From: Herpetosiphon giganteus
GTDB lineage: Bacteria > Chloroflexota > Chloroflexia > Chloroflexales > Herpetosiphonaceae
DNA length: 64,000 bases
Assembly (NCBI RefSeq): GCF_016907925.1
Contig: NZ_JAFBCZ010000014.1
Span: forward strand, 62,001 to 126,000
Direction: 5' to 3'
In this document: one piece after another, positions 34,371 to 50,451 of the stretch
How positions within the stretch are numbered: position 1 is the stretch's first letter
Layout of the letters: each line of letters begins with the position of its first letter
Made by a program: the position numbers and the translations under genes
The notes under the pieces: generated by a model
The model's database searches: none
What the model saw: only the letters and a program-made list of their open reading frames with translations
Told to the model about the DNA's origin: nothing

Positions 34371-36233
34371 TTATGGCGCGACGCTACATGCGGTGCCGTT
34401 TAAGCTAATGCTGCTTGGCTTGGGGTTGCTACCGCTGTAGGTTCCTTGGAAGCCAAAGCTAGCAGTGCCACCGCTGGCGATCGAGCCATTCCAGCCAGCG
34501 CTATTGACACTGACGTTTTGGCCGGTTTGGCTGACAACGCCATTCCAGAGATTGCTAATTTGTTGATTGCCTGCGAATGTCCAAGCCACATTCCAGCCAT
34601 TAATCGCTGCACCGTTGTTGCGAATACTGACATCGGCGGTGAAGCCACTGCCCCAGTCGTTGCTGATGGTGTAGCTGATTTGGCATGCGCCAGCAATTGG
34701 CGTATTGGTTGGCGGCGCGCTGGTTGGCACTGGCGTGTTGGTTGGGCGAATCGTTGGAACCGCTGTATTGGTTGGCAACACGTTAGTTGGCACTGGCGTG
34801 TTGGTTGCTGGTAAGGTGGTATTGGTTGGCAAGACGTTAGTTGGCACTGGCGTGTTGGTTGCTGGCACAGTGGTGTTGGTTGGGCGTGGCGTGCTGGTTG
34901 CTGGCACGGTGGTGTTGGTTGGCACTGGCGTGCTGGTTGGCGTAACGCCGTTGGCCAATTCATAAATATTGGGGAAGTTGCCAGTCAGCAGCAACATGCT
35001 CATCAAACGCCAAGCATTGACATAATATGAATTTGGCGAATCTTTGGTTGCCAAAACCATGTTATACGCTTGTTGCGGCGTGGTTTTGAGCTGGCCCGTG
35101 GCAGCGCCACAATTGACAGCTTGCGCAGCAGGAGCGGCCCAAATTGCGGCAGCAGCATTGGCCACGAAGAACACGCCGCGATAATTATCGACCGAGGTGC
35201 CGTTCATGCGATAGCGGGCTTGCACATTTTCGATGCCGACGCTGCTGAAGAAACCACCAACTTCGTTCATGGTTTCGCGTGAGCTGGCGGTGTTGTACCA
35301 CGCTTTATCGACGGCAACGCGCCATGCAAAGCGTGCTGCGTCATAGCTCCACCAAGCGTATTCTTCTGGCTGCCACGAAACGAGTTGGGCATCGCCATCA
35401 TATTGGTTCCAGTTGGGCACGAGCTTGGAGCAGTTGCCCGGGCGCGATTGAGCTAAGTTGGTAATTTCATAATTGCGGGCATTGACCGCTTCCCATTCGC
35501 TGGTTTTGCCTGTGAATTTACCAAAGACGGTGAAATAGCCAGGCGAGAAATAGGAAAGATTGACGATGCCTTCTGGATAATCGCGGGTCAGGTTCCAGCC
35601 ATCGCCGGGTAATAATTCGTTGCCTGGGTTGTTGGGCAAACCAGCGATTGGGCTTGAGCCTGGGTGATCAACTTCGTAGGTGTAAATATTGTTGATCATC
35701 GTTGTTGCCAAGCTACAATAATCGAGACCATTGCTGCTTGGTTGCCAAACGCCCTTGCGCACCTTGACACAGGCATTGACGAGTCCCAAGGCCATATCTT
35801 CGTCGCCATCAGTGGCGGCGTAGCTCCCGCGCAATTGGCCAGGATTGCCAATGTGCCAGTGCATCAAGCCGTTGGGGTCAAGGTGATCGCGGGTGAACAA
35901 CCACAAACCGTCAAGCGTGTTTTGGTCGTCGAAAATCGAGGCGAACAGAATGCCATAGCCTTGGCCTTCGGAAACCGTCGATGAGCTATCGACCCCACCC
36001 ATCACGCGTAGGCGATTGCCGCCGCCAGCATTGTTGGCGGTGATCATATTGCTTTTCCACTCGTTCCAAGCCTGCGTGAGATCGGTCACATTGTAGTTAA
36101 TGCCTGAGGGTTGGTTATAGGGAAACAACAATGGGCTAACATTATTGCCTTGGGCAGATTTGGATTGCAGCCATGGCACGCTAATCAGCGCGAGTAATGC
36201 CACGAGCAGCAGCATTTTGCGATGCTTTAACAT
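34371..36233 (-). CDS. Secreted GH8-CBM2 endoglucanase
   Basis: A 620-aa exported cellulase. The signal peptide is about residues 1-28, the GH8 domain about 30-410 (VSEGQGYGIL; GDEDMALGL; SYDAARFAWR), followed by a ~100-residue Thr/Pro/Val linker (PTNTTVPATN-type repeats) and a C-terminal family 2 carbohydrate-binding module from about 517 (ACQISYTISNDWGSGF). Two conserved cysteines near the CBM ends and tryptophans in WNVAWTF, NLWNGV and AGWNGS fit a cellulose-binding face. GGAGG lies 8 nt before the ATG. It follows the GH48 gene by 164 nt with hairpins between. Confidence 0.94.
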   Translation of the reverse strand: MLKHRKMLLLVALLALISVPWLQSKSAQGNNVSPLLFPYNQPSGINYNVTDLTQAWNEWKSNMITANNAGGGNRLRVMGGVDSSSTVSEGQGYGILFASIFDDQNTLDGLWLFTRDHLDPNGLMHWHIGNPGQLRGSYAATDGDEDMALGLVNACVKVRKGVWQPSSNGLDYCSLATTMINNIYTYEVDHPGSSPIAGLPNNPGNELLPGDGWNLTRDYPEGIVNLSYFSPGYFTVFGKFTGKTSEWEAVNARNYEITNLAQSRPGNCSKLVPNWNQYDGDAQLVSWQPEEYAWWSYDAARFAWRVAVDKAWYNTASSRETMNEVGGFFSSVGIENVQARYRMNGTSVDNYRGVFFVANAAAAIWAAPAAQAVNCGAATGQLKTTPQQAYNMVLATKDSPNSYYVNAWRLMSMLLLTGNFPNIYELANGVTPTSTPVPTNTTVPATSTPRPTNTTVPATNTPVPTNVLPTNTTLPATNTPVPTNVLPTNTAVPTIRPTNTPVPTSAPPTNTPIAGACQISYTISNDWGSGFTADVSIRNNGAAINGWNVAWTFAGNQQISNLWNGVVSQTGQNVSVNSAGWNGSIASGGTASFGFQGTYSGSNPKPSSISLNGTACSVAP

Positions 36234-49247: not shown

Positions 49248-49751
49248 TTACCACCGATCAACCATATCCTTGGCTTCTTTCAAGCCCAAGTTGGTTGCTT
49301 GACGCACCAATTTGATCGCCTGAATTTTGTTGCCTTGGCGGGCGATGGCTTGGGCTTCGCGCAGTAGATCGTCTGGTAAGGCTTGAGCTTGAGGAGCAGC
49401 ACGATTTGCACTCATCAGCTGACTTGGGTTTTCGCCGCGTTCAATCATCTCGACATAATCTTTGGCTTCTTTGAGGCCAAGGTTGGTTTGTACGCGAACC
49501 TGCTTAATCGCCTCAATCTTCTTGCCTTGGATCAATAAACCTTGAATAGCTGCTTGATCGATTGGTTTTGAATCGAAGCCAGAGCTAAATTGAGCGCTTG
49601 GATTTGCATCAACGTTTGGTGTGTGGACTGGATTGATTGGGGTCTGATTGAGATTGATGCTACTGCTTGGCCGTTCTGAGCGTTTGCTCCAAATCCAAAT
49701 CGCCAACCCAATCAAGACTGCTAAAACAATCCACCACATTTGATTTGGCAT
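49248..49751 (-). CDS. Membrane protein with two ribosomal L7/L12-like C-terminal domains
   Basis: A 167-aa single-pass membrane protein. Residues 6-22 form the membrane segment (WWIVLAVLIGLAIWIW), followed by a polar linker. Then two copies of a ~30-residue helical hairpin appear: KKIEAIKQVRVQTNLGLKEA and NKIQAIKLVRQATNLGLKEA, each ending in a D-Y/M-V motif. They match the helical part of the bL12 C-terminal domain, which binds translation factors. The role of this membrane-bound version is unknown. ATG 49751 has GGAG 8 nt upstream; an ATG two codons earlier is less likely. Confidence 0.78.
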   Translation of the reverse strand: MPNQMWWIVLAVLIGLAIWIWSKRSERPSSSINLNQTPINPVHTPNVDANPSAQFSSGFDSKPIDQAAIQGLLIQGKKIEAIKQVRVQTNLGLKEAKDYVEMIERGENPSQLMSANRAAPQAQALPDDLLREAQAIARQGNKIQAIKLVRQATNLGLKEAKDMVDRW

Positions 49752-49824
49752 ATTCATTGCTCCATCTACTTAATCGTTCTAATCAGAGTGTACGTGAATT
49801 GATGATCAATGCAAGGCCGAAGTT

Positions 49825-50090
49825 GATCCACGAAGAGCACGAAGGCGAGGAGGCTACGTCGAATGGTTCATTGGATTGGTAATCAGTTGCATGCCCTCAC
49901 CCCCAGCCCCTCTCCCACTGAACGCAGGAGAGGAGAGTTGACTGTTGTGTACCAAAAAATGGTGGTAAAACTACCGTCTAAAGCCCCTCGCCCGCGCCAC
50001 GGGAGAGGGGTTGGGGTGAGGGCATCTTCAACAACCAAAAGCCTATAGCCTAATTCCCAATGTTCTATGCTCTATGTTCTCTGTTCTGAG
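49825..50090. repeat. Intergenic repeat cluster
   Basis: ACGAAGAGCACGAAGG 9-mers are at about 49832-49846, then a MITE-like element, then the AAGCCTATAGCC unit and GTTCTAT/GCTCTAT/GTTCTCT heptads at 50062-50087. These lie directly upstream of the selenoprotein gene. Confidence 0.8.
49872..50022 (+). mobile_element. MITE-like GC-rich palindromic element, copy 3
   Basis: It starts GGATTGGTAATCAG, CATGCCCTCACCCCC and ends GGGGTTGGGGTGAGGG. The two ends (about 45 nt each) are imperfect inverted repeats; the centre differs from copies 1 and 2. No coding capacity. Confidence 0.65.
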
Positions 50091-50096
50091 TATAAT
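50091..50096 (+). promoter_or_regulatory. -10 box of the selenoprotein gene
   Basis: A perfect TATAAT follows directly on the GTTCTAT/GTTCTCT heptad array, 36 nt before the ATG. No good -35 hexamer is seen outside the array. Confidence 0.45.
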
Positions 50097-50131
50097 TGAA
50101 CCAATGGTTTATTGAATTTAGGAGGCTGCTG

Positions 50132-50377
50132 ATGCAGATCACCATTACCTTTTGTATGTATTGAAACTACACCCCGCGTGCTGTCAGTTTGGCAGCCCAA
50201 CTGTTGGACATTCATCGCCAAGCGATTCAGCAACTGAGCCTCGTTCCCTCGAAGGGTGGCTGTTTTGAAGTTGAAGTTAATGGGCAATTGCTCTATAGCA
50301 AACTTCAGACCGAACGCCATGCCGAGGCAGGCGAAGTTGAGGCCTTGATCGCTGCCTATCTCGACCAACAAGCCTAA
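50132..50377 (+). CDS. SelW/Rdx-family selenoprotein (in-frame TGA as Sec)
   Basis: An 81-aa thioredoxin-fold redox protein if TGA at 50162-50164 is read as selenocysteine. The sequence begins MQITITFCMYUNYTPRAVSL; C8 and U11 form a C-x-x-U redox motif where Rdx proteins have C-x-x-C or C-x-x-U. The rest fits the family: AAQLLDIHR, SKGGCFEVEVNGQLLYSK, and AGEVEALIAAYLDQ. AGGAGG (50120-50125) lies 6 nt before the ATG, and the frame is intact on both sides of the TGA. Conventional annotation would start at an internal TTG (50189) and lose the active site. The Sec machinery lies outside this window. Confidence 0.78.
50162..50196 (+). promoter_or_regulatory. Candidate bacterial SECIS hairpin
   Basis: After the TGA codon (50162-50164), a 6-bp stem GCTGTC (50180-50185) with GGCAGC (50191-50196) encloses the loop AGTTT. 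The loop starts 21 nt after the TGA and has G as its second base. This agrees with the general bacterial SECIS model: a small apical stem, G among the first two loop bases, and 16-37 nt from the UGA. Confidence 0.6.
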
Positions 50378-50383
50378 ACCGCT

Positions 50384-50451
50384 GCTGCAAGCCTACTTGC
50401 GGCATGCAGCGGGCTTGCAGCTTTCACAGGGCCAAATCCGCATGCTATAAT
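50384..50451 (+). promoter_or_regulatory. Hairpin and promoter before the epimerase gene
   Basis: A 10-bp stem (50384-50393 with 50412-50421), ending in TTTC, may terminate the selenoprotein transcript. The promoter TTCACA (50423-50428), 17-nt spacer and TATAAT (50446-50451) follows, 34 nt before the GTG start. Confidence 0.6.

Follow-up and report, generated by a model that had tools for sequence, protein, structure and literature searches.

The window, a 64,000-nt stretch of DNA from Herpetosiphon giganteus, almost certainly carries a functional gene for a SelW-like selenoprotein of the Rdx family, located at 50132–50377 on the forward strand. Comparison with relatives predicts that its in-frame UGA is decoded as selenocysteine (Sec). 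The same genome encodes the Sec machinery, and the codon and its surroundings are conserved in the genus and across the Chloroflexota.

Gene anatomy and family assignment

The reading frame begins at ATG 50132 and ends at a TAA stop (50375–50377). As a preliminary description of this DNA had reported, an AGGAGG stands 6 nt before the ATG, and a TGA at codon 11 is the only in-frame stop before the TAA. The features of the locus, in window positions, are as follows.

50091–50096 (approximate to a base or two), + strand: possible −10 box TATAAT, from direct reading of the sequence
50120–50125, + strand: Shine-Dalgarno sequence AGGAGG, with a CTGCTG spacer (6 nt) to the ATG
50132–50377, + strand: predicted gene for a selW-like selenoprotein of the Rdx family; the product has 81 aa, with Sec as residue 11 (C8-M-Y-U11)
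50162–50164, + strand: in-frame TGA, codon 11, predicted Sec codon at the second redox position of CxxU
50180–50196, + strand: candidate bacterial SECIS hairpin GCTGTC-AGTTT-GGCAGC, with G in the second loop position

With the TGA read as Sec, the product is MQITITFCMYUNYTPRAVSLAAQLLDIHRQAIQQLSLVPSKGGCFEVEVNGQLLYSKLQTERHAEAGEVEALIAAYLDQQA. The Shine-Dalgarno sequence reads AGGAGG in three species of the genus and AGGAG in H. aurantiacus. A TATAAT also occurs at a similar upstream distance in the orthologues of H. llansteffanensis, H. geysericola, and H. aurantiacus; a consensus scan found no −35 partner for the copy at 50091–50096.

The surroundings of the gene contain several other elements. 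Right after the stop codon lies a GC-rich inverted repeat, GCTGCAAGCC ... GGGCTTGCAGC (50385–50420), without a T run. This repeat might mark the end of the transcript, in which case the selW-like gene would be monocistronic. The upstream intergenic region holds a long inverted repeat, GCCCTCACCCCCAGCCCCTCTCCC ... GGGAGAGGGGTTGGGGTGAGGGC (49893–49917 and 50003–50025), that looks like a dispersed repeat element. Beyond it, on the − strand and divergent to the selW-like gene, 49248–49757 encodes a 169-aa protein with a hydrophobic N-terminal stretch and two partial matches to the C-terminal domain of ribosomal protein L7/L12.

The product belongs to the Rdx family, as had been proposed. Residues 2–73 match Pfam Rdx (PF10262) with an E-value of 1e-17 (64.5 bits against a cut-off of 22.6), and the product also matches TIGR02174 (CXXU_selWTH; SelT/SelW/SelH) at 55.1 bits (cut-off 34.2). 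With NF041051, the Campylobacterota equivalog, it scores 79 bits, under the cut-off of 88. The protein matches the solved structures 2fa8, 3dex, 2p0g, and 2obk, all Rdx/SelW-related, and these matches imply a thioredoxin-like fold. The CxxU redox motif near the N-terminus, C8-M-Y-U11, lies where the preliminary description had placed it: Cys-type Rdx/SelW proteins align with the product from end to end, and in 2fa8 and 3dex a Cys stands opposite U11 (CxxC versus CxxU).

Comparison with known members places the gene among the bacterial SelW-like selenoproteins (PF10262, TIGR02174, NF041051). It shares with them its length, the N-terminal CxxU, the FEVxVNGxLxYSK core, a bacterial SECIS element directly 3′ of the UGA and co-occurrence with selA. 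There is no difference of substance, the gene falling inside TIGR02174 and outside the narrow NF041051 model. Cys-type members of the family (2fa8 Atu0228, 3dex SAV_2001, and the Chloroflexota sequences L056 and L058) have CxxC in place of CxxU and lack both the TGA and the conserved hairpin. Mammalian SELENOW shares the CxxU redox motif of the Rdx family and differs in its eukaryotic SECIS element, which has another structure and, like eukaryotic SECIS elements generally, sits in the 3′ UTR. The structural difference between eukaryotic and bacterial elements has been described (PMC1088965).

Conservation in the genus and phylum

The nearest named orthologues, which are intact, occur in H. geysericola DSM 7119, H. 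llansteffanensis CA052B, and H. aurantiacus DSM 785, with 98%, 96%, and 94% protein identity, respectively. Codons 9–25, the stretch with the TGA and the hairpin, do not vary among the four complete genes of the genus, counting the one in the window. The other three differ from the window gene at 4–17 silent and 1–4 amino-acid-changing codons, all of them outside codons 9–25. In H. aurantiacus, where 17 silent and 4 amino-acid-changing codons separate the two genes, the chance of finding no silent change within codons 9–25 is p of about 0.009.

For the phylum, we sampled 151 Chloroflexota genomes. Rdx is present in 71 of these, and 55 of the 151 have an Rdx with TGA, at exactly the same site; this tally includes genome G070, whose copy ends at a contig end. 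All 55 TGA-Rdx genomes have selA over the cut-off, compared with 122/151 overall (p about 3e-7, a value valid only for independent genomes, which these are not). The alignment of 71 sequences consisted of the window gene and 70 fetched loci, a few being repeats of one gene. The codon at its second CxxC/U position is TGA in 56 sequences and encodes Cys in the remaining 15, with no other stop or residue, and the TGA occupies the same codon in 56 of the 56 Sec-type sequences. The random stops and frameshifts that a decaying gene might show in relatives, and for which the preliminary description had advised a search, were not seen. The orthologue of G070 at first appeared truncated at the Sec codon, with a match from profile position 11; we rejected this candidate because the contig ends there (L052: 614/1301 bases).

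These comparisons bear on two other readings of the frame. In the first, the TGA either truly ends translation or results from a sequencing error, which would make the gene a pseudogene or a misread Cys gene. Ordinary gene callers would indeed terminate at the TGA, and the assembly is a draft of 85 contigs. Against this stand the same TGA and identical neighbouring codons in four further genomes of Herpetosiphon, among them the complete one of H. aurantiacus, the TGA in about 50 other Chloroflexota genomes, and changes between species that are mainly silent. On this sequence evidence we treat a pseudogene or a sequencing error as practically excluded and give this reading a very small probability. 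In the second, translation starts at TTG 50189, which had been pointed out as a start that gene callers might choose; it lies in frame, and the product would be a 62-aa protein lacking the CxxU site. AGGAGG precedes ATG 50132, however, the TTG lies inside the hairpin, and codons 2–10, which build the CxxU motif, are conserved across the phylum in a way that a leader does not explain. We therefore regard a start at the TTG as extremely improbable and retain ATG 50132.

In a tree of 65 Rdx sequences, the main Cys form of the Chloroflexota (CxxCGYEPQ...) branches as a subgroup of its own with strong support (100/99). Because the tree has few columns and many unresolved forks, we limited statements on the order of Sec/Cys changes to this subgroup. 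Genome G061, of the same family, carries a Sec-type Rdx with CMQU (L031/L055) and a separate Cys-type Rdx with CAAC (L056), so the Sec and Cys types are distinct subgroups in the Chloroflexota.

The SECIS hairpin

The preliminary description had claimed a 6-bp hairpin with loop AGTTT located 21 nt after the TGA, in accord with bacterial SECIS rules. The hairpin is there and its loop does lie at 21 nt, but its stem begins at 15 nt; the whole element spans 15–31 nt 3′ of the TGA. The published rules call for a loop of 3–9 nt, a stem of 4–16 pairs, a G in the first two loop positions, a distance of 16–37 nt from UGA to loop, and an energy of −7.5 kcal/mol or lower (PMC13188914). Folded alone with loop AGUUU and 6 pairs at 21 nt, the hairpin reaches −7.4 kcal/mol, just short of the threshold. 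Folded alone with loop GUU and 7 pairs at 22 nt, it reaches −7.8 kcal/mol, and folding of a 40-nt stretch gave this same form (7 pairs, loop GUU) at −8.7 kcal/mol. In the GUU form, with 7 pairs at 22 nt and −8.7 kcal/mol over 40 nt, the element agrees with the rules.

By itself, the window hairpin does not exceed shuffled sequences in stability (z −0.65). Since it is statistically ordinary, we excluded it as stand-alone evidence. The genus relatives are identical to the window here, and 23–30% of their synonymous recodings fold equally well because the codons for RAVSLAA favour the hairpin. Across Sec-type genes, this stretch folds better than its synonymous recodings (mean z −1.75, 44/50 below −1), whereas the same stretch of Cys-type genes folds no better than recodings (mean z −0.33). 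Among 25 Sec genes, picked from sequences having the hairpin in this register, the covariation score was 0.307 compared with 0.160 for shuffled alignments, and none of 500 shuffles scored as high. In these 25 genes, both sides had changed at three stem pairs (15 cells in total versus 2.1 in shuffles), and sliding the partner strand abolished the signal. A second set of relatives has an overlapping hairpin shifted by about 4 nt. In these alignments, the predicted hairpin shows phylum-wide covariation, and the Cys forms lack it. Support for it thus comes from the comparison with relatives, the energy of the window copy being unremarkable.

Selenocysteine machinery in the genome

We searched the host genome, a draft assembly of 85 contigs (6.16 Mb, 100% complete), for the four genes selA, selB, selC, and selD, the check that the preliminary description had put first, and found all of them. 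A single tRNA-Sec gene exceeds the Rfam cut-off (60.9 bits against 47), and ARAGORN reports a tRNA-SeC with anticodon TCA. SelB scores 316 bits against a cut-off of 242 and has SelB-type beta-barrel and winged-helix domains; SelA and SelD score 531.6 and 376.8 bits, respectively.

The selD gene itself (L019 1480–2526; contig C24 of the host genome, near 35088–36020) contains one in-frame TGA, at codon 18 counted from an ATG placed at L019 1480. Its context, SCAGUAAK, is the position of the catalytic Cys or Sec in selenophosphate synthetases, and SelD is therefore very probably a second selenoprotein of this genome. The selD stretch 3′ of the TGA folds into a hairpin of about −8.8 kcal/mol. No in-frame TGA was seen in the Molybdopterin, AhpC-TSA, and CMD families of the host genome, which have known Sec members elsewhere.

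The machinery bears on one further reading, in which the UGA is read by general readthrough as Trp or Cys. Nothing beyond the open frame speaks for it. The full Sec machinery is present, the TGA stands at the redox position where homologues have Cys, and the hairpin goes with the TGA forms and not with the Cys forms. General readthrough is accordingly a most implausible explanation, and Sec remains the predicted residue.

Proposed mechanism and significance

In bacterial Sec decoding, SelB and Sec-tRNA bind a hairpin and deliver Sec at the UGA (PMC1794560). For the selW-like gene, the ribosome would initiate at ATG 50132, the SECIS hairpin just 3′ of UGA 50162 would hold SelB with Sec-tRNA(Sec), and Sec would be inserted at this codon in place of termination. 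The predicted product is an 81-aa protein of thioredoxin-like fold; close to the N-terminus it carries the redox pair Cys-Met-Tyr-Sec. It is most likely a small thiol/selenol oxidoreductase, with a selenenylsulfide cycling between C8 and U11. What bacterial SelW-like proteins do has been called unclear; an interaction with glutathione is reported for the SelW family (PMC1088965), and this, together with the CxxU motif, suggests redox work for the bacterial proteins. Coding anatomy, machinery genes, and conservation are read directly from the sequence; cellular Sec incorporation, the redox cycle, and its partner we infer. Our literature search on Herpetosiphon and selenocysteine found no selenoprotein of this genus that had been studied by experiment.

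Bacterial SelW-like selenoproteins were first described no later than 2005, and the Herpetosiphon gene is a further member. In marine surveys they rank with the most frequent families of bacterial selenoproteins (PMC1088965, PMC9312934), being the most abundant family in the Sargasso Sea set, with 48 genes (PMC1088965), and prominent again in later surveys (PMC9312934). They are also listed in the table of a 2006 survey (PMC1794560). The gene changes no concept. Standard gene calling will probably shorten or overlook it, and the redox site may be lost. The comparison across the Chloroflexota points to a CxxU-type SelW that is widespread and conserved there, together with selA.

A genome with few evident Sec genes would be a convenient setting for studying bacterial SelW function. 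Herpetosiphon, whose lifestyle is largely aerobic, could conceivably maintain its whole Sec system to serve very few proteins, perhaps SelW and SelD alone, although we consider this rather doubtful. If it were true, Herpetosiphon would use selenium mainly for the sake of the SelW-like protein, and the genus could be a simple model for bacterial SelW function.
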